From an uncultured Pseudodesulfovibrio sp. (GTDB taxonomy: Bacteria; Desulfobacterota; Desulfovibrionia; Desulfovibrionales; Desulfovibrionaceae): 64,000 nucleotides of DNA. A program made the translations under genes and the position numbers. Shown one piece after another: positions 29,305 through 41,112 of the stretch. The stretch lies in the NCBI RefSeq assembly GCF_963664965.1, contig NZ_OY761823.1:1002001-1066000 (forward strand). Direction: 5' to 3'. Each line of letters starts with the position of its first letter. The first letter of the stretch is position 1. The notes under the pieces are model-generated. The model saw nothing but the letters and a program-made list of their open reading frames with translations, searched no databases and was not told the DNA's origin.

Positions 29305-32300
29305 ATGACATCTGATACCCGCAAGACAAAAGCCGAACTTCTCAAGGAAATCGGGCGGCTGCGAAAAATGGTCGAAAGCGACACAAACCGTCGTTTTTTC
29401 GAATCCGCTCCGCTGCCGTATCAGTCGCTTGATGCCGAAGGATGCGTCCTTGATGTCAACAAGGCGTGGTTGGAGCTTTTGGGTTACCGCCGGGAACAGA
29501 TTCTCGGGCGATGGTTTGGAGAGTTCCTGACACCGGAATCGCAAGAGATATTTCGGCAAAGATTCTGTGTTTTCCTTGCCGAAGGCGAGGTGAATCATGC
29601 CGATTTTACCGCACTTCGGCAGGATGGAGTGCAGGTCCATGTCAGCGCAGAAGGCCGTATTGTTTATGATGCTGACGGCAACTTTCGGCAGACCCAGTGC
29701 ATTTTATACGACATCTCGGAACAGCGCCGTGTCGTGGAGGTGCTGGCCTCAAGCGAGCAGCGTTTTCGGGGGCTGTTCGAATCCAGTCTCGACGGCATCG
29801 TGTATACGAATGATTTCGGTTCGATCCTGAATGCCAACCGCGCGTTTTGTTCCATGATAGGATTCTCGGTAGATGAACTGCTGGGCAGGCATATTCGTGA
29901 CATCACTCCGGATGAGTATCATGAAGTAGAGTGGAATATCGTTCGGATGGAAGTCGGCGACAAGGGGTATTCCCGTGAATACGGGAAGGAGTTCTTTCAT
30001 GCAAAAGGACACCGGATTCCTGTAACCGTGCGTGTCTGGCTCAACCGGGACGAACGCGGCAATACAGCCGGAATGTGGTGCATGGCCCGTGATCTGAGTA
30101 GGGAGAAGACCGCCGAGCTGCTCGCTGCCAAGTCAAACGCGCGGTATCAGTTGTTGGCCGAAAATACGGAAGACGTCATCTGGTCTCTGGATAACGATTT
30201 CAGGTATACGTATATCAGCCCATCCGTTACCAGACTGCGGGGATATCGTCCGGAAGAATTGGTCGGGACCAGTATATGTGATTCCATCATGAAGGAGTCT
30301 CAGGGGATTCTGGCAACGTCAAATGTCGTGGCGTTTGAGGCGGACGCCCAGACCAACCCGGAAAAGGCGTTACGTATCGAGTTGGAGCTTCTATGCAAGG
30401 ACGGTGGGACTGTCTGGGTGGAGTCGCTGGTCAAGATGATGTTTGACGACGCAGGGAATCGGAGCGGCTTCGTCGGTTCGACCCGTGATATTACCGATCG
30501 CAAACGGACCGAAGAGGAGTTGGCCAATAGCGAACGAAACTACCGCAATATTTTTGAGCACTCGGTGGAAGGTTTGTACCAGTCTACTCCCGACGGGCGT
30601 TTTGTCAGCGTCAATCCGACTCTGGCCCTTTTGCTGGACTATGAGTCCCCACAGGCGGTCATTGACTCGATTCATGAGATTGCCACAGAGTTCTATTATT
30701 CTCAGGGTGATCGGAAAGCGATGGTCACGGCCCTTGAGCGGGATGACGAGGTCCGTGATTTCGAGGTTCGCATCAGGCGTCGGGACGGGAGTATCATCTG
30801 GGTCACGGAGAACGCTCGCCTTATTCGTGATGAGGACGGCGTCCCTGTCATGTACGAAGGCAGTATCGTCGACATCTCCAAGCGCAAACGGACCGAGGCC
30901 GCGCTGTTGCGAAGCGAAAAGCTGCTCAATGAAGTGCAGCGGCTCAGCCTGACCGGCGGATGGGAAAGCAATATTGCGACCGGAGAGGTCTACTGGACCG
31001 AGTCCCAGTACCGTATTTTCGGATTGACTCCGGGAGAGCCTATCCGTGGGCATCTGAATTTCATGGAAAAAAATGTCATTCAAGATGATCATCGCGAGTT
31101 TCTCCGGGCTTGGAACCGGGCACTTGAGTCCCGGCAGCGAGGTCAGATCGAGTTCCGCGCCCATCGTGCAGACGGAAGTTTGGGAGTGTATCAGTCTGTC
31201 ATCATCCCGGATGTCGACAAAAGCGGCGAGGTTGTCCGCATTTACGGTTCCACTCGCGACGTGACACTTGAGAAAGAGGCCGAGCAGGAACTGGTTTCCT
31301 CTCATGAACGCCTGCTGAACATTCTGGACGGTATGGATGCGGATATTTACGTCTCAAGCCTTGATGGGCACGATATCCTGTTTATCAACAAGTATATGCG
31401 AGAGAATTTCGGCACGCCTGCGCCCGGGGTCAAATGTCATGAAATCTTTCGTGGCGAGAAGAACCGATGCTCGCATTGCCCCAAGCCGGAGTTGATCGAC
31501 AGCGAGGGCAACCCCATGCCCACCATTATCCGTGAGCGTCCCAATCCGTTGACCGGGAAATGGTATCTCAACCATGACCGCGCGATTCGGTGGCTGGAGG
31601 GGAAGCTTGTTCACATGCATATGGCCGCCGACATTACCGAGCTCAAGGAACTGGAGCAGGAGTTGGTTTCTGCCATGGCCCGTGCCGAGGCCGCCAGTCT
31701 CGCCAAGAACGAATTCCTTGCCAACATGAGTCATGAGATCCGTACTCCGCTGAACGGTTTGCTCGGCATGATGCAGTTGCTGCAACTTTCCAGCCTTGTG
31801 GAAGAGCAGCGCGAGTATGTGGATATCGCCTTGGATTCCGGGCGAAACTTGCTTCAGATTCTCAATGATATTCTCGATCTTTCCAAGGTCGAATCCGGCA
31901 AGCTTGAACTGGAAGAGGAAGAGATTGAACTCGGAGAAGTGCTGGACTCGGTGGTATCCGTTTTCCGGCATTCGGCTGAATCACGCGGATTGCGGATGAC
32001 ATGGTCTGTTGACGAAAAGCTGCCAGTGTACTTCCTTTCGGACAAGGGGCGGCTCCGGCAGATTCTTTTCAATCTGATAGGCAATGCGGCCAAATTCACG
32101 GAATCAGGCAGCGTTACTGTGGAAGCAGGCATTTTGTCGACGCCGATGAAAGATGGACGAATGCGTGTCTTTTTTTCCGTGACCGATACCGGGATCGGTA
32201 TCCCGGAAGAGAAGATCGACCGTATTTTCGATCCGTTCACTCAGGTGGACGGGTCTTCGACTCGCAAATATCAGGGCACCGGTCTCGGGCTTGGTATTGT

Positions 32301-32823
32301 TCAACGCCTTGTGGGGCTTATGGACGGTTCCATCACCGTTTCAAGCGAGAGTGGGAAAGGGACGACAATCGGTTTCACCATAGCGGCTTCGCAGCCTTCG
32401 TTGGCAGCAGAGATGGCGGTGCGTGCTCCTGAAACCGATACCGTGGTACCGCTCAATATCCTTGTCGCCGAAGACGAACGCGTCAATCAGGCGGTCATAA
32501 AAAGGTTGCTCGGAAAGATCGGGCATACTGTCGTCTGCGTTGACAACGGGGCAAAGGCTCTGGATATGCTCGGGAAGGCGAAGTTCGATTGCGTGCTCAT
32601 GGATATTCAGATGCCGGAACTTGACGGGATGGAAGCCACCCGTGCCATCCGCGAATCGCTCGGGCTTGATGTACCGGTCATCGCCCTGACCGCTCACGCC
32701 ATGAAGGGAGACCGCAAGCGGTTCCTTGAGGCTGGAATGGATGGGTACATCGCCAAGCCCTTTGACATGATCGAGCTTGTTTCGGAATTGCACCGAGTGG
32801 TGGGCAGCCCCCGCGAGGTCTGA
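29305..32823 (+). CDS. Multi-PAS hybrid histidine kinase
   Basis: 1172 residues, no clear membrane segment, so probably cytoplasmic. About six PAS domains lie between residues 15 and 780, most ending in a DITDRKRTEEEL-type connector; the sixth holds a cysteine motif (RCSHCPKPEL) that recurs in PAS domains of anaerobes and may bind a metal or sense redox state. Then HisKA (NMSHEIRTPLNG, His about 810), HATPase (DTGIGIPEEKIDRIFDPF) and a C-terminal receiver (LVAEDERVNQ, phospho-acceptor Asp about 1100 in VLMDIQMPE, lysine in YIAKPFD). The receiver output is unknown. The start has only a weak ribosome-binding site. Confidence 0.95.
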   Translation: MTSDTRKTKAELLKEIGRLRKMVESDTNRRFFESAPLPYQSLDAEGCVLDVNKAWLELLGYRREQILGRWFGEFLTPESQEIFRQRFCVFLAEGEVNHADFTALRQDGVQVHVSAEGRIVYDADGNFRQTQCILYDISEQRRVVEVLASSEQRFRGLFESSLDGIVYTNDFGSILNANRAFCSMIGFSVDELLGRHIRDITPDEYHEVEWNIVRMEVGDKGYSREYGKEFFHAKGHRIPVTVRVWLNRDERGNTAGMWCMARDLSREKTAELLAAKSNARYQLLAENTEDVIWSLDNDFRYTYISPSVTRLRGYRPEELVGTSICDSIMKESQGILATSNVVAFEADAQTNPEKALRIELELLCKDGGTVWVESLVKMMFDDAGNRSGFVGSTRDITDRKRTEEELANSERNYRNIFEHSVEGLYQSTPDGRFVSVNPTLALLLDYESPQAVIDSIHEIATEFYYSQGDRKAMVTALERDDEVRDFEVRIRRRDGSIIWVTENARLIRDEDGVPVMYEGSIVDISKRKRTEAALLRSEKLLNEVQRLSLTGGWESNIATGEVYWTESQYRIFGLTPGEPIRGHLNFMEKNVIQDDHREFLRAWNRALESRQRGQIEFRAHRADGSLGVYQSVIIPDVDKSGEVVRIYGSTRDVTLEKEAEQELVSSHERLLNILDGMDADIYVSSLDGHDILFINKYMRENFGTPAPGVKCHEIFRGEKNRCSHCPKPELIDSEGNPMPTIIRERPNPLTGKWYLNHDRAIRWLEGKLVHMHMAADITELKELEQELVSAMARAEAASLAKNEFLANMSHEIRTPLNGLLGMMQLLQLSSLVEEQREYVDIALDSGRNLLQILNDILDLSKVESGKLELEEEEIELGEVLDSVVSVFRHSAESRGLRMTWSVDEKLPVYFLSDKGRLRQILFNLIGNAAKFTESGSVTVEAGILSTPMKDGRMRVFFSVTDTGIGIPEEKIDRIFDPFTQVDGSSTRKYQGTGLGLGIVQRLVGLMDGSITVSSESGKGTTIGFTIAASQPSLAAEMAVRAPETDTVVPLNILVAEDERVNQAVIKRLLGKIGHTVVCVDNGAKALDMLGKAKFDCVLMDIQMPELDGMEATRAIRESLGLDVPVIALTAHAMKGDRKRFLEAGMDGYIAKPFDMIELVSELHRVVGSPREV

Positions 32824-32838
32824 GTCCGGTAACTATTT

Positions 32839-33888
32839 CTAAATAATGGAGATGGGCAGGTCGTTATCTGCCAAAGCCCGTGCCGTGCCCACATGCGCTG
32901 CGAGATCGCCTGCGGCTTCAAGCATGCTCACGGCTTTATCGAGTTTTTCCGGCGGTACGGCCAGTATCAGGCCGCCTGACGTCTGCGCGTCGAACATGAG
33001 GTCCGAGCGGATGGGGTCGAGGCCCGCTGCGAGGTTCGTCTTGGACTTGTAGTGATTGCGGTTGCAGATGGAACCGGCGGGTAGCATGCCCATGCCTGCG
33101 AGGTCCAGCGCGCCGTCGATGAGCGGCACGGCGTTCATGCGTAGTTCGATATGCACCCGGCTTGCCTCGGCCAGTTCGATAAGGTGGCCGCCCAGCCCGA
33201 ATCCCGTGATATCGGTTGCACCGGTCAGGCCGAGTGTTTCAATGACTTCCCCGCCCGCTTTGTTGAGTCGTCCGCAGATCTGGAAAAGTGTTTCTTCCAT
33301 TTCTTCCGAACCGGGCATTTCGCCCTTGACCGCCGTGGCAAGCACGCCCGTGCCGATGGGTTTGGTGAGCAGCAGTTCGTCACCCGGTTTCACTCCACGG
33401 TTGGATGCGAAACAGTTGGGATTCACGGTCCCGGAAACAGCCAGTCCGTACTTGAGTTCATCGTCTTCCACACTGTGGCCGCCGGACGGCACGGCTCCGG
33501 CCTCTTCCACGGTGTCCTTGCCGCCGCGAAGCACTTCGGTCAGGACATATCCGGGCAGGGCTTTCATGGGAAAACAGACAATGTTCATCGTCGACCACGG
33601 GCGACCACCCATGGCGTAGACGTCGGACAGGGCGTTTGCTGCTGCGATGCGCCCGAATTTGTACGGGTCGTTGACGGTAGGAGTAAAGAAATCAACGGTT
33701 TGGACGAGAGCTGCCCCTGCGGGAAAAGACAATATGACAGAGTCCTCGTTGTCGCCCGGTCCTCCGGCCAACACGCGGTCATCATCTCGGACCTTCACGC
33801 CCGACAGCGCCTGCTCCAGGTCCCCCGGAGCGATCTTGGCGGCTCAACCAGCCGCTTTGACTGTGCTCACGAGTTTCAGCTTCGTCAT
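32839..33888 (-). CDS. selD: Selenide, water dikinase, a selenoprotein
   Basis: SelD makes selenophosphate, the selenium donor for selenocysteine and selenouridine. The true start is the ATG at 33886-33888, with AAGGAG before it; codon 15 is an in-frame TGA (33844-33846) read as selenocysteine in the active-site motif KAAG-U-AAKIAPGDLEQAL. The product has 349 residues, the normal SelD length; without recoding only 319 residues from a GTG at 33798 would be predicted and the active site lost. Other signatures are VQTVDFFTP, GGHSVEDDELKYGLAV and DITGFGLGGHL. A stem-loop stands in the right place for recoding. Confidence 0.96.
33813..33831 (-). promoter_or_regulatory. Bacterial SECIS element of selD
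   Basis: On the minus strand, 12 bases behind the UGA, an 8-bp stem (one G-U pair) closes a GGA loop. Distance and size fit a bacterial SECIS, which recruits SelB to recode UGA as selenocysteine. Confidence 0.8.
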
Positions 33889-33962
33889 GTGATCTCCTTA
33901 TAGGGGGTGGTTTAGCAGAGTTGGGGGGGAAAGACAAAAGGCAAAAGGCAGGGAAATGAAAA

Positions 33963-34260
33963 CAAAAGGCGGAAATCCAGTCGCTTTCGCTCCTTCCATG
34001 CCCTCCCGGCGGGGTTCTTTCTTGGCTGGGCCGCCCCAAGAAAGAACCAAAGAAGCTCGGCTTTCCTAACTTACCCGCCGGACTCTCACCGGCCTGAGAA
34101 TCTGATCCAAACAAGCTGCTCCCGAATCAAGTCGCCGAAGCGGCTCCGTGATTCGAAAGAGCCGCAGCCGTTGTTTGGTCAGCTTCTAGGACCGGTGAGG
34201 TCTGATTGGCTCATTGGGATTATTGGATGAGATATTGGCGAGAAGGCAAGTGCGGCAATG
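33963..34260 (+). repeat. Structured repeat, copy A
   Basis: It starts with GGCGGAAATCCAGTCGCT and ends near GGCAAGTGCGGCAATG. Stem 1 pairs 34013-34025 with 34036-34048 (13 bp, GGTTCTTTCTTGG). Stem 2 pairs 34107-34114 with 34171-34178 (CCAAACAA with TTGTTTGG) and continues inward with GCTGC/GCAGC. Confidence 0.85.
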
Positions 34261-34325
34261 AAAATCCATCTTTTTTTTAAAGACAGAGAAAGGCAAAAGC
34301 AGAAAGGCAGAAAGACAAAGGCATG

Positions 34326-34660
34326 AAAGGCAGAAATCCAGTCGCTCGCGCTCCCTCCATGTCCTACGCGGACGGCGGTTCTTTCTTGGATTTGAACCGC
34401 CCCAAGAAAGAACCAAAGAAACGCGGCTTTATCTTGATTTACCCGCCAAGTCCTCACCGCCAAGAATCTGATCTGATCGGGGCGGCTCCATACCATGAAA
34501 AGCGCAGTCACTGCCATTCCGCTCGGTACGGGACTATGTTGATTCATACATATCCCGTTACCAAAGCCGCCTTCCCCGGTCAGTCAGCTTCTAAGGCTTG
34601 TGAGGTTTAATTGGCTCATTTGGCGAATGGTAAGGCGAGAAGAGGGCAAGTGCGGTAATC
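34326..34660 (+). repeat. Structured repeat, copy B
   Basis: Same orientation as copy A and starting with the same GCAGAAATCCAGTCGCT block. Stem 1 pairs 34377-34389 with 34402-34414 (13 bp, identical arm). Stem 2 has a different sequence, 34481-34487 with 34565-34571 (GGCGGCT/AGCCGCC). It ends at GGCAAGTGCGGTAATC. Confidence 0.85.
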
Positions 34661-34683
34661 AAATTTTGTCATTTGATTTCAGT

Positions 34684-34975
34684 GCTTGCCTTTCACTTTC
34701 TTCCACACAAAGACCGACACTAGCCCTTAGCTTCGGAGCTTAGAAGCTGACAAAACGGAAGCCGCGGCTCTTCGAATCCGGAGCCGTCCCCGGCGACTGG
34801 ATTCGGGAGCGGCCCGTTTTGATCAGATTCTTGGTTCCGAAGATACAAGGCGGTAAAATCGAGCAAAAGTCGAGCTTTTTTGGTACTTTTTGGGGCGGCC
34901 CAGCCAAAAAGTACCGCCGTCCGCGCAGGACACGGAGGGAGCGTCAGCGACTGGATTTCTGCCTTTTGCTTTTTG
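34684..34975 (-). repeat. Structured repeat, copy C, inverted
   Basis: Inverted relative to A and B. Stem 1 pairs 34882-34893 with 34904-34915 using a changed arm (GGTACTTTTTGG with CCAAAAAGTACC). Stem 2 pairs 34751-34758 with 34814-34821 (CAAAACGG/CCGTTTTG). Arms differ from copies A and B, yet pairing is kept on both sides. Confidence 0.85.
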
Positions 34976-34990
34976 GCCTTTCATTTCACG

Positions 34991-35056: not shown

Positions 35057-37567
35057 TTAATCCAACCCCATTCCCGGATGATGCGCGGCATCTTCCATCC
35101 CATCCACATGACAGACCGTGCAGGTCCCACCTGCACCGAGTGCCTGCGCCTCGCCCATATACTGCATGGGCAGTGCGTTGTCGCGCTCCGTGGCCGGATA
35201 CACAGCATGGGGGCTACCGTGGCAGGCGGCGCAGTTGACCGCGTCCATTTCGTCGCGGCGCGCTGAGTACAGGCCTGCGGCGTCCTCGGTCCATGTGTTG
35301 AACGCGTTGTCCGAATCCGGGGCCTCGAAACCGATATGACAGGTCAGGCAGTCAGGCTCGTTTTCCCACGGCGTGCGCGGGTTGATGGCGTCCCGGTTGC
35401 CCATGGTGCGCGGCACGATGAGCGAGATCAGCCGGTCTGCGGACTGCTTGCCCTGTTCCTGCTCGGCCTTGAGCAGGGATATGGCGTGGTCTTCAATGGC
35501 CCCGTGGCAGTTGGTGCATTCGAGTCCGGCCTCGTTGTGTTGCCCGCGCAGGGTGTCCTTCGGGTGACACATGAGACAGGAGTTCTCGGCATTACGATCC
35601 GCCATGTACACGGCATGGACACCGTGGAGGGCGGCGGAGAGATTGAGACCGTCCGTGCCGGTGACGCCCTGCGCCGGATCGTCGTGGCATTCCACGCAAA
35701 GTACGATGCCGTTTTCGGCGCGGCTTGCAAGGTCGGTCCGGTTCATGCGGTCATGCACGGCGAGGATGTTGTCCGCCGTTGGCGTGCTGATGCCGGAACC
35801 TGCGGCTTCCCATGGCCCGCCGTGGCAGTTGCGGCAACCCATCTGGTCGCTCACGGGTAGGGTGGTTTTGGTCTCTGCCAGTGTGTCGCCGTCCATGTTT
35901 TTCGCGGTAACGGTCACCATGGGCAGCGGGTTGAATTCGCCGTTTTGGTACGGGGTGACGGCAAGCCAGCCTTCAAAGCGGTTGGAGTCGTCCTTGAGCT
36001 TGAGAACGCCGGTCATGTCCACGCCGTCGAAACCCGGCTCCACGGCGTAGGTGATTTCCACGTCTTCGGTGACGATTTCGGGCGCGTTGTCGCGCAGGAT
36101 GAGTTGTGCCCGGATGGCGTTGCCCGGAGGCAGCAGGGTCCACTTGTCGGTTTGTGCGTAGAACCGCATGCCCTGATCGGCCCATGCCGTGAGGACGTAT
36201 TCTGCGGAATCCGCGTCGAACGGAGCCGGTTCCACGGCCTCGGGATCGGGAATCGCGGCGGTTTCAACCGGTGCTTTGCCGTTGAGTCCCTGGGCAATGT
36301 AGGTGGCCAATGCCATGCGCTCTTCGGATGTGCCGACAAAGGGCGGCATGTAGGTGTTGAGCTTGCCCATGCCGGTCAGGAACGCGTCCATGCCGTTGGT
36401 GTCATACATGGCGGTGCGCTTGTGAATGTCATTCATGGGACCGCTTATGGAATGGCAGGAAGCGCATTCGAGCTGGAACAGGAATTCGCCCGCCTGCATG
36501 CGGTTGTCGTCCGTGATGCCTTCCTTGAGGGCCGGGGGTGCCCATTTCGCACTGGCGATGGCACCCTTCTGGTTGATGACCGGGACGTGCGACCTGATGA
36601 TGGAGTTGGAATAAGTGTGGTTCCAGATGAGGTACGGCTTGCGTCCTGCCTCACGTATGAATTCAAAGGAACCGAACAGCCCCTGTCCCGCGATCAGCAC
36701 GACGAGCGCGAGCTGGAAGCTCATGAGTTTCGGCATCCGGAATGCGAGAACCAGCCCGCCGATGAGTGTCAGCGCGCCGAAAATCCAGAACCACTGCATG
36801 AATTCGGCGACGCGCTGGGACTTGAGCATGATGAGGTCGTATTGTGCGGGAGGCAGGGCGGTCACGTACCACCAGCCGGTCGCCATGGTGGCGAGCACGC
36901 CTGCGATGGTCCATGCCGAACAGGACCGGACCACGGAAAGCCGGGTCTCGTCGTCCGGGATGCGTGTTGCCGTGACAAATCCGAACAGTCCGGCACAGGC
37001 CGCGGAGAAGAAGGTGCGGAAAACGAGCGACGGCCAGAAGGACGGATTGAAGAAACCGTCCCAGAAGTCCTTGGTCGTGATCCAGTCACCGGGCGTGAGC
37101 ATGAAGCCGATGATGCCGTTGATGAGGAACAGGGAGAACCATCCGAAGATAAAGTAGAGCCAGCCCACTATTACGTGATCGCTGCGGTCCATGGTGTTCC
37201 ACGTATAATAATAGATGATGAGCGCCACGATTTCGCCGAGGAAGCAGACCCATTCCGCGGCCCATCCGAACACGAACTGATGGATGAGCGTGATGGTCGC
37301 CTGTGGCGCGAGCAGTGCGATGGAGAACCAGATGGCCACACCCGAGACTGCGCCGAAAGCCATGGTCAGCAGCAGGAAGAAGCGGGTGTGTTTTTTGGCG
37401 TATTCAAGCAGGTGGATGTTGTTGGTGCGATATGCCGCCTGTTCGGTCAGCACGAGGAACAGGCCGCCGCCTACGGCGAAATGGGCCACGTAGACATGAA
37501 CCGTCGCGATCAGTGCGATCCAGAAACCGCCGCCGAGGGTGGTGAGTTGCCAGATGGGATATTCCAT
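35057..37567 (-). CDS. Membrane quinol-type subunit fused to octahaem cytochrome c
   Basis: 836 residues. Residues 1-345 form about eight membrane helices starting MEYPIWQLTTLGGGFWIALI, with HVYVAHFAVGGG; they resemble the cytochrome ubiquinol oxidase subunit I-like proteins of deltaproteobacteria. The periplasmic remainder (about 365-836) has eight CxxCH haem-c sites: CASCH, CRNCH, CVECH, CLMCH, CTNCH, CLTCH, CAACH, CTVCH. It probably passes electrons between the menaquinone pool and periplasmic carriers. It lies three bases behind its membrane partner gene. The direction of electron flow and final partner are unknown. Confidence 0.88.
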   Translation of the reverse strand: MEYPIWQLTTLGGGFWIALIATVHVYVAHFAVGGGLFLVLTEQAAYRTNNIHLLEYAKKHTRFFLLLTMAFGAVSGVAIWFSIALLAPQATITLIHQFVFGWAAEWVCFLGEIVALIIYYYTWNTMDRSDHVIVGWLYFIFGWFSLFLINGIIGFMLTPGDWITTKDFWDGFFNPSFWPSLVFRTFFSAACAGLFGFVTATRIPDDETRLSVVRSCSAWTIAGVLATMATGWWYVTALPPAQYDLIMLKSQRVAEFMQWFWIFGALTLIGGLVLAFRMPKLMSFQLALVVLIAGQGLFGSFEFIREAGRKPYLIWNHTYSNSIIRSHVPVINQKGAIASAKWAPPALKEGITDDNRMQAGEFLFQLECASCHSISGPMNDIHKRTAMYDTNGMDAFLTGMGKLNTYMPPFVGTSEERMALATYIAQGLNGKAPVETAAIPDPEAVEPAPFDADSAEYVLTAWADQGMRFYAQTDKWTLLPPGNAIRAQLILRDNAPEIVTEDVEITYAVEPGFDGVDMTGVLKLKDDSNRFEGWLAVTPYQNGEFNPLPMVTVTAKNMDGDTLAETKTTLPVSDQMGCRNCHGGPWEAAGSGISTPTADNILAVHDRMNRTDLASRAENGIVLCVECHDDPAQGVTGTDGLNLSAALHGVHAVYMADRNAENSCLMCHPKDTLRGQHNEAGLECTNCHGAIEDHAISLLKAEQEQGKQSADRLISLIVPRTMGNRDAINPRTPWENEPDCLTCHIGFEAPDSDNAFNTWTEDAAGLYSARRDEMDAVNCAACHGSPHAVYPATERDNALPMQYMGEAQALGAGGTCTVCHVDGMEDAAHHPGMGLD

Positions 37568-37570
37568 GAG

Positions 37571-38617
37571 CTAGGCCCTCCCCTGACGGGACTTGAAGTA
37601 GAGCTTGAGCATGTAGCCGGTCAGTGCGAGTCCGACCACGAGAAAGCCGAGGAACAGGTACAGGGACGAATACTGGTGCGTGACCGGAGTGTCTTCGATG
37701 CGAAACCACGGAGCAAGAAAGAAGGTGCGTACCCAGTGCCGGGTGCAGCTCATGAAGAATACTGTGAGCACGGCCCATGTGGCAGCGCGTTTCGGCTGCT
37801 TCTGAAAACCTGCGGCAAGGAGCATGGCCGAGGCGAGGAGCGATGTCACCAGCGTCAGGGTGGCCGGGAGGTTGCCTCCCATGAACCCGAGCATGATGTC
37901 GCGGGGCAGGGCGATGAGGAACCACATTCCCACCGCGAGATTGACCAGTGTGGCGCGGGTGAGCCACGCCATGCCGGAATCGACATATTCATCGATCTTG
38001 CGCCATTGGCCGAGCAGGGCGACGAACAGGCCGCCGAGGGCGATGGAACCGAGCATGAAGTGCAGGAAGCGCGGGAAGAGCGTGGGGTCGCCCCAATTGA
38101 GGAACGCCGCACCGTTGTTTTCGAAGTATTGTGTCCATGCTGCGGGAAGCAGCATGAGCGTAGTGTTGTTGGTCAGCATGAAGCCGACATAGAGCAGACC
38201 TGCGAGTGAAAGCACGAACAGGGTGTTGCGCCTGCCCGGAGACATGGCGTCGTATTTGAATTTGTATGCGTAAAATCCGTAATAGGAGAAGAGCAGGGCC
38301 GCGATGACGCCGAGCCACCAGCCGCCCATGAGTACGGAACTGACGTAGTCGAAGTGCCCGTAGTTGACCTGAAGGAACAGGAGCGGAGCCACGCCCATGT
38401 TGATGGTCAGTGCGAGCAGCGGCGGGAGCTTTTGCCCAACGTCGTGCATGAGCCCGTCGTTTCCGCGTACGGTCCGGACAAGGCCTATGGCAGCCGAGCC
38501 GAGCAGCGCATTCATGAACAGGATGTGTGCAGTGAAGGTGAGGATGAGCAACACGTCGAACCATGCCCATGGAACAGGGATGGGTTCGGCCATCGGGATC
38601 AGGGATGCTGGAATCAT
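37571..38617 (-). CDS. Membrane partner subunit of the octahaem complex
   Basis: 348 residues from the ATG at 38615-38617 with AAGGAGG upstream; the frame is open far upstream (to 39844) but there it runs antisense to a chemoreceptor gene. About eight membrane helices; an early HILFMNALLG and later histidines (RFLHFMLGS, RHWVR, THQYSS) could bind haem b. I do not know a named family, but the tight coupling to the octahaem gene (gap of three bases) argues for one complex, made in this order. Confidence 0.83.
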   Translation of the reverse strand: MIPASLIPMAEPIPVPWAWFDVLLILTFTAHILFMNALLGSAAIGLVRTVRGNDGLMHDVGQKLPPLLALTINMGVAPLLFLQVNYGHFDYVSSVLMGGWWLGVIAALLFSYYGFYAYKFKYDAMSPGRRNTLFVLSLAGLLYVGFMLTNNTTLMLLPAAWTQYFENNGAAFLNWGDPTLFPRFLHFMLGSIALGGLFVALLGQWRKIDEYVDSGMAWLTRATLVNLAVGMWFLIALPRDIMLGFMGGNLPATLTLVTSLLASAMLLAAGFQKQPKRAATWAVLTVFFMSCTRHWVRTFFLAPWFRIEDTPVTHQYSSLYLFLGFLVVGLALTGYMLKLYFKSRQGRA

Positions 38618-38800
38618 GCGGCCTCCTTGGAGCTTTAACCTACCTTTAATATGTTTTTTTTGGTTCATGCACAAGTCCGGCCGCATATGCGTATGAAGCT
38701 GCACCTGGAAAAATTTTTTTTGTTTGTAACGAAATCGTAACACGTTTATTCTCCCTATTACCCGTTGAGGGGAATAATTTACTGCTTTACTGGGGGAATA

Positions 38801-41086
38801 ATGAAAATCGGACAAAAAATGACGGTGCTGGGGTCTCTGCTGATCGGACTTACGACCGTCTGTATTCTCGGCATCCTCGTCTGGCAGAGCGGTGTCGTCG
38901 AAGAACGGCTGGCGGTATATTTTGAAAAACAGGCGCGGCACGAGGTTGAATTGGCTGTCGTGGATGCGGGTAATCTGCTGAAAACGCAGCATGCGACACT
39001 TTCCAAGCAGCTTGAAAACGACATGCATGTCCTGCTCGATCTGGTAAAGCGGGACGGCGGCATCCGCGTGATGGATGAGACGATAGACTGGAATGCAGTC
39101 AATCAGGTCTCCAAGGAAGGCAGCGTGGTTGCGCTGCCCAAGCTCAAGGTCGGATACGACTGGCTCGGTCAGAACGCCAATCCCAATGTGCCGACGCCGC
39201 TTGTCGATTCTCTCATGAATCTGACGGGTACCACCTGCACGGTTTTTCAGACCATGAATCCGCAGGGCGATTTGCTTCGCGTGGCGACCAATATCCTGAA
39301 GAACAACGGCAAGCGTGCCGTGGGAACGTATATCCCGAGCAGCAGCCCGGTGGCCAAGACCGTCAAGTCGGGCCAGACCTTTCGCGGAACCGCATATGTG
39401 GTCAATGCGTGGTATCTGACGCAGTATCGTCCCTTCAAGGACGATCAGGGCAATGTGCTCGGCTGTCTCTATGTCGGTTTGTTGCAGGAGGGCGTGGAGC
39501 AGCTTCGGGACGGCCTCAAGTCCGTCAAGCTCGGCTCCACCGGTTCTCTGACCGTGCTGGGCGGTTCCGGCAAATCTGCCGGAATCATCAAGATGCACAA
39601 GTCTGCGGACCGTGAGGGAGAAAACATTTTCGACGTGAAGGACGCTGAAGGCAACTCGGTCTACAGCGAAATTGTCAAGGCCGCCAAAGAGGCGGACGGC
39701 AAGCCGGTCACGCGTGTGGCGCTGCTCGACGAATCCGGTTCGGGGCGTCCGCAGGAAACCATCCTGACCGCTGTGTATTTCAAGCCGTGGGATTGGGTTA
39801 TTCTTGGTACTGGGTATTTGGATGAATTCATGGCCGGAAAACACGCGGCAGACGAAGCGCTTGCCTCATCCCGCAATTGGACGGTCGGTATTGGTGTTGG
39901 CATGCTGGTCCTCGGTGTGATGCTGATCCTTCTTTTCGCCCGCCAGATCAGTGGGCATATCGGCAAGGTCGTGGATGTGCTCGCCTCCATCAATAAGGGT
40001 GAACTCGATGTCGAGCCTCTCAAGGTTCCGGCAGGCGGTCCCCGTGATGAACTGGACGTCCTCGGGCAGGCCCTCAACTCGACGGTTGAGACACTTCGTC
40101 ACAACATCGAGGAGATTACCGAAAAGACCGAGGAAGCCCATGAAAAGGCCGAGGCCGCGGAAAAGGCCATGGCCGAAGCGGACGTGGCCCGCGCCGAGGC
40201 GGAGAGCGCCCGCCGTGAAGGCATTGTTCAGGCCGCCCGGCATATTCAGAGTGTTGTGGACCGGGTGTCTGCCGCTTCCAGCCAGATCGAGACCCAGTCG
40301 GAAATAATCGGCAAGGGCACGTCCGTCCAGCGTGACCGCGTGCAGGAAACTGCCACGGCCATGGAAGAGATGAACGCCACGGTTCTGGAAGTCGCCCGCA
40401 ACGCGAGTGAAGCTTCTTCCATGGGTATGGAAGCCAAGGAGCTGGCCGTGGAAGGTGCCGGGATTGTCAGCAAGTCCGTGGAGGCCATGAACACCACGTT
40501 CGGTGCCGCGAAAGAATTGAAAGACGGCATGAACAAGCTCGAAGAGCAGGCCGACGACATCGGCAAGGTCATGGAAGTCATCACGGACATTGCCGACCAG
40601 ACCAACCTGCTCGCCTTGAACGCGGCCATTGAGGCGGCGCGTGCGGGTGAAGCCGGCCGCGGATTCGCGGTCGTGGCTGACGAAGTCAGGAAGCTGGCGG
40701 AAAAGACCATGCAGGCGACGACCGAGGTCGGTAATTCGATTACCGCGGTTCAGGACGTTGCCCAGCAGAATATCACCAGCATGGACAAGGCACTTTCCGA
40801 CCTCGGTGTGGCTGTTGAGATGTCCAGCAAGTCGGGAACGGTGCTCAAGGAAATCGTCGAAGGCGCGGAATTGTCTGCTGAACAGATTCAGGGAATCGCC
40901 ACGGCGGCGGAACAGCAGTCCGCCACCTCTGAAGAGATCAACCGGGCCATCGAGGAGATCAACTCCGTGTCCACCGAGACCTCGCAGGGCGTCGCTGAAT
41001 CCGCGGATGCCCTGCGCGAGATGGCTGCCCAGATGGCGGAACTGCAAAAGGTCATCGATAGCCTCATGCAGGACGCGGAAGCCTGA
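38801..41086 (+). CDS. Methyl-accepting chemotaxis protein, Cache type
   Basis: 761 residues from the ATG at 38801 (GGGGG upstream; the frame opens at 38765). First membrane helix about 10-32, a periplasmic sensing domain of the Cache_3-Cache_2 kind (about 35-345, with [20 protein letters not shown] and [20 protein letters not shown]), second helix about 365-388, HAMP, a long Ala/Glu-rich coiled coil (about 445-485) and the signalling domain with the tip [20 protein letters not shown]. There is no C-terminal pentapeptide. The ligand is unknown. The gene is divergent from the cytochrome operon. Confidence 0.95.
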
Positions 41087-41112
41087 TCGGCCACACACTG
41101 ACGTTATAAATC

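Follow-up and report, generated by a model that had tools for sequence, protein, structure and literature searches.

The selD gene in the window, by which we mean the whole 64,000-nucleotide stretch of DNA analysed here from an uncultured Pseudodesulfovibrio sp., almost certainly encodes a selenoprotein: the UGA at codon 15 would be decoded as selenocysteine (Sec) via SelB and a downstream hairpin, in a self-feeding arrangement. An earlier note on this DNA had claimed that SelD is itself a selenoprotein, and the machinery genes of the genome, the alignment of residue 15 with a Cys position and the fit of the hairpin to a bacterial SECIS model all support such a reading at the level of sequence. 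The features concerned are the following, in window positions:

32839 to 33888, minus strand: selD, selenophosphate synthetase (selenide, water dikinase), 349 residues plus stop codon, with a putative Sec at codon 15
33894 to 33899, minus strand: Shine-Dalgarno-like AAGGAG, 5 nt before the start codon
33844 to 33846, minus strand: UGA codon 15, putative Sec, at the catalytic Cys position
33813 to 33831, minus strand: predicted bacterial SECIS hairpin, with an 8-bp stem, a GGA loop and 20 nt from UGA to loop
32839 to 33798, minus strand: 319-aa ORF from GTG codon 31, a stop-respecting call thought not to be the real gene

On the minus strand (33888-32839), which the earlier note had left unnamed, the frame runs from an ATG at 33888-33886 to a TAA at 32841-32839. 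Translated with TGA as U, it gives a product of 349 residues that scores 326.9 bits against the SelD equivalog model TIGR00476 (cut-off 125), contains AIRS and AIRS_C domains and matches the solved SelD structures 2yye/2zod, 3u0o and 2zau. What the earlier note had read from the letters, namely an ATG with an AAGGAG site and a TGA as codon 15 followed in frame by the rest of SelD, is present as described, with a 5-nt gap between site and start and the frame open to the TAA. By a simple pattern, a Shine-Dalgarno-like site also lies ahead of the in-frame start in 29 of the 35 loci of the genus. Around the gene, a promoter scan returned no promoter-like site and a terminator scan one terminator-like site, a number that shuffled sequences give as well.

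If the UGA were a true stop, the 14-codon piece before it would be a remnant or encode a leader peptide, with SelD made from the GTG of codon 31 and lacking the active-site loop. The corresponding 319-aa frame is open, and its listing as an ORF from the GTG at 33798, 30 codons shorter, bears out the prediction that a stop-respecting caller would truncate the protein to 319 residues. However, codon 31 is start-like in only 11 of the 35 genus loci, truncation would remove both the position that matches the catalytic Cys and the neighbouring Lys, and the protein sequence surrounding the TGA (G-U-A-A/S/C-K-I/L), like that downstream of it, is conserved throughout the order. Given the conservation around the TGA and the rarity of a start at codon 31, we rejected a truncated SelD as highly improbable. 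For annotation the correction matters, as a stop-respecting call would drop the active site of SelD.

The full-length product has the Cys/Sec and Lys of the N-terminal glycine-rich loop by which SelD is recognised, here as U15 and K18. Residue 15 aligns with the GC-motif Cys of 2yye and 3u0o, and Lys18 with their Lys, which presumably is catalytic too. The first of these structures is the SelD of Aquifex aeolicus (PMC7595633) and the second the solved Cys form from E. coli, whose Cys17 is described as binding selenide, the Cys17Ser variant being inactive (PMC3956282). The E. coli enzyme thus belongs to the same family and its Cys/Sec and Lys positions align with those of the window, but it carries Cys where a Sec is predicted here. 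As had been proposed, the TGA occupies the place of the catalytic residue: once aligned with SelD proteins, position 15 falls on the Cys of solved SelD, in E. coli the catalytic one. An in-frame UGA at a redox Cys position is what a selenoprotein gene is expected to show, and the Cys homologues use TGC or TGT at this point.

How far the TGA is shared was read from 118 genomes (the window's own and those of its genus, family and order), among which a SelD match was found in 109 and loci from 108 were taken into the comparison. Within the genus SelD was found in 35 of 36 genomes, and codon 15 is TGA in 35/35 loci, each from another genome. The family and order outside the genus gave 73 loci; L130, L201 and L205 are without the N-terminal part and were left uncounted, and the 70 readable loci comprise 69 with TGA and one with TGC. 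This brings the order as a whole to TGA in 104 of 105 readable SelD loci. A further set of 72 named loci outside the genus, whose organisms partly overlap the family and order set (among L056-L127, at least L056 repeats an order-level genome, L150), contains 69 TGA, 2 TGT and 1 TGC. L125, L184 and L190 were included under a looser motif rule, and L048-L055 were left out of the counts because their N-terminal translations are the same as those of other genus loci. The eight best named relatives, seven Pseudodesulfovibrio and one Desulfovibrionaceae bacterium, show 72-82% identity over the best segment, which makes Pseudodesulfovibrio the most likely genus of the window.

These counts bear on the idea that a Cys codon has been turned into TGA, whether by an error in sequencing or by recent nonsense mutation. 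Cys-form SelD does exist, with TGC or TGT in 4 of the 185 SelD loci read (some of them duplicates), and the earlier note had itself named a sequencing error as the finding that would undo its claim. Since TGA is present in all 35 genus loci, each from another genome, an error of this kind fails as an explanation; together with the 69/70 loci of the family and order, likewise each from another genome, this rules out error and recent mutation alike, leaving them a negligible probability. G069 has a weak match only (25 bits) and no SelD above the cut-off, and no SelD was found in G031, of the same genus, or in G044, despite SelA, SelB, tRNA-Sec and formate dehydrogenases with TGA in both. A draft-assembly gap is the likely cause in G031 and G044; alternatively, SelD may be absent or replaced there.

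The machinery for decoding UGA as Sec is in place in the window's genome (G000; 3.87 Mb, 2 contigs, 100% complete). It has one SelA (536.1 bits, at about 3.06 Mb), one SelB above the cut-off (392 bits against 242.25, at about 3.05 Mb) and one tRNA-Sec above the gathering score (80.7 bits, at about 1.33 Mb), which ARAGORN reads as tRNA-SeC with anticodon tca; selD lies apart from all three, at 1.03 Mb. The search for selA, selB and selC that the earlier note had recommended therefore finds the full set expected alongside a selenoprotein gene, and their absence can be dropped as an objection. One SelD scores above the TIGR00476 cut-off in this genome, with 1 internal TGA, and no second one does; two weaker matches, at 41.8 and 32.8 bits and so below the cut-off of 125, probably come from other proteins of the fold family. 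An in-frame TGA also occurs once in each of three formate dehydrogenase alpha genes, where the loop of the best simple hairpin downstream begins with GG at a distance of 23 nt. As selenouridine synthase has no match in G000, SelD seems to serve Sec alone. Outside the window, at G000:C1:1693483-1696504, a formate dehydrogenase alpha match is split near its N-terminus; the two parts share 5 bases and thus lie in different frames, which may reflect a frameshift or two genes.

The hairpin behind the UGA, GCUCCGGG-GGA-CCUGGAGC, starts 12 nt past the UGA and has its loop 20 nt from it; it folds with a stem of 8 bp, a loop of 3 nt and an MFE of -14.1 kcal/mol. The bacterial SECIS model as set out in PMC13188914 has a loop of 3-9 nt, a stem of 4-16 bp, a spacing of 16-37 nt, a G in the first two loop positions and an MFE <= -7.5 kcal/mol, and the hairpin agrees with all of these constraints. 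The proposal of a SECIS-like 8-bp stem with a GGA loop, 12 bases after the UGA, is thereby borne out by folding and by the published model. Scanning the window against Rfam with gathering thresholds gave no match, which is neutral as to the hairpin.

Compared with dinucleotide shuffles, the hairpin of the window's selD shows no excess stability at 49 nt (z 0.14) or 57 nt (z 0.26); the values are z -1.36 at 31 nt (17/200 shuffles as stable) and z -1.74 at 67 nt (7/200). Because the hairpin sits in coding sequence, a second, stricter control was used in which synonymous codons were shuffled according to the gene's own usage with the protein held fixed, and here the hairpin does exceed chance. 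Equally good folds arose in 46 of 1000 shuffles over 8 codons, 4 over 9, 3 over 10 and 20 over 13. By the same control, the TGA genes of the genus have a mean z of -2.85 (31/35 at p<=0.05, missed by 4) and those of the family and order a mean z of -3.11 (64/69, missed by 5); the named genes outside the genus average -1.90, with only 35/69 at p<=0.05. At eight control offsets in the same genes, mean z ranged from -0.47 to 0.85 over the three sets and from -0.42 to 0.85 over the genus and the family and order sets, and p<=0.05 was reached by 0-3/35 genes in the genus, 2-7/69 in the family and order and 1-7/69 among the named genes outside the genus.

Pairing is kept as well. Stem cells that pair number 254/272 in 34 distinct genus rows and 496/544 in 68 family and order rows, against at most 147 and 300 when one arm is moved by 1 to 3. 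The innermost pair is altered on both sides, from G-C to A-U, in 1/34 genus and 7/68 other rows, and unpaired in 2/34 and 3/68; the outermost pair is kept in only 18/34 and 42/68. Wherever the commonest residue is kept, a single codon is used for it at codons 20 (GCT, 29/29), 24 (CTG, 35/35) and 25 (GAG, 35/35), and mean synonymous identity is 0.83 over codons 20-26 versus 0.57 for the remaining codons scored in the range 6 to 74. TGA and hairpin are thus both kept across the order, and with a SECIS that is almost letter-for-letter constant in the genus, beside the near-universal TGA of the order (104/105 loci), the gene offers a clean comparative case.

Hairpin and TGA are not strictly tied, as the sole Cys form in the family and order set keeps its hairpin. 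This SelD (L128, G042:C1:1158190-1159194) has TGC at the Sec position and, at a spacing of 20 nt, a hairpin of 10 bp that is more stable than all 1000 synonymous shuffles. In its genome, G042 (completeness 95%), SelA was not found, and neither SelB nor formate dehydrogenase alpha scored above the cut-off; no selenouridine synthase was found, and the best match to the tRNA-Sec model (47.9 bits) is identified by ARAGORN as a tRNA-Ser, anticodon tga. This lineage, whose genome yielded no Sec machinery, has a Cys codon and has kept the hairpin. A Sec-to-Cys change that left a fossil SECIS would look like this, and such a pattern was described in 2006 (PMC1794560). The more distant named Cys loci L111, L121 and L124 fail the shuffle test (p 0.064, 0.43 and 0.108).

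One more way of reading the codon has to be weighed, in which much of the protein has an ordinary residue at the UGA, be it Cys, Trp or Ser, and Sec is incidental. Near-cognate readthrough of UGA occurs in bacteria. E. coli SelD, moreover, is reported as functional with Cys (PMC3956282). On the other side stand the full Sec machinery in the genome, a SECIS conserved more strongly than the encoded protein requires, and the order's one Cys form, which sits in G042, where the search for that machinery came up empty. We rejected readthrough that bypasses Sec as very unlikely in view of the machinery and the SECIS conservation.

Decoding as Sec, the reading we prefer, suggests the following course of events. 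The ribosome would start at 33888 and meet the UGA at codon 15, where SelB carrying Sec-tRNA-Sec, held by the hairpin just downstream, would have it decoded as Sec. Sec15, with Lys18 nearby, would replace the selenide-handling Cys, and the finished SelD would convert selenide and ATP to selenophosphate. As SelA would use selenophosphate to charge tRNA-Sec, SelD would contribute to making both itself and the formate dehydrogenases. What the sequences show is the gene, its TGA, the hairpin with its conservation, the machinery genes and no second SelD above the cut-off; that the UGA is recoded, that Sec15 is catalytic here and that the feedback operates, we infer. With its active-site stop codon read as Sec, SelD would need its own product in order to be made.

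Food for thought is how such a biosynthetic loop restarts, a simple and testable question that the self-dependence of SelD raises. On a far-reaching view, the SelD found in nearly every genome of the order that was read is a selenoprotein that has to make itself, and a cell left without SelD after selenium starvation could not start again on its own. Readthrough of the UGA by another amino acid could then give a weak seed SelD. That the loop has no independent entry, and that its restart needs either such a readthrough seed enzyme or long-lived inherited SelD, is a speculative and rather unlikely extension; if true, the lineage-wide dependence on inherited protein or readthrough would amount to a switch with memory of a novel type.

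Desulfovibrio and Pseudodesulfovibrio are closely related. For Desulfovibrio vulgaris and D. desulfuricans, Table 3 of a 2006 study includes SelD in its list of selenoproteins; the study also names FdhA and SelD as the most widespread bacterial selenoproteins (PMC1794560). The earlier note's statement that Sec-containing SelD is established in other bacteria accordingly stands, and for Desulfovibrio it has been in print since 2006. In these two species the same enzyme uses Sec alongside FdhA selenoproteins, and as they are presented in that study we find no difference from the window's gene except genus (PMC1794560). The selD of the window is therefore real but ordinary, of a kind already known in related sulfate-reducing bacteria. 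A prokaryotic survey, in its account of Sec-SelD, likewise places the Sec always at one position, the same as here, and recovered bacterial SECIS from the coding regions (PMC4561486). Sec forms make up 19% of the SelD genes that it detected in its reference set, whereas TGA is found in 104/105 loci of this order. Of the papers on Pseudodesulfovibrio and selenocysteine in the library searched, none is about selenium by title, and absence from print is not claimed.

Some observations regard the neighbourhood of selD. At 35057-37567, on the minus strand, lies a protein that matches cytochrome bd subunit I together with multihaem cytochrome c domains; the 757- and 410-aa ORFs next to it, within 35057-41098 on the same strand, have no Pfam or NCBIfam match at E<=0.001. 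The stretch 33930-34980, reaching about 1 kb upstream of selD, contains two direct copies of a sequence that have diverged (spacing about 360-405) as well as an inverted one; the arms reach 61 nt and are 73-92% complementary, and the whole may be a non-coding repeat element. On the other side, at 29305-32823 on the plus strand and convergent to selD, is a hybrid histidine kinase in which several PAS domains accompany a receiver domain. Within the stretch compared around selD, a similar kinase is found on the opposite strand in 27 of the 35 genus loci, the window's included, so the pair seems to be kept.
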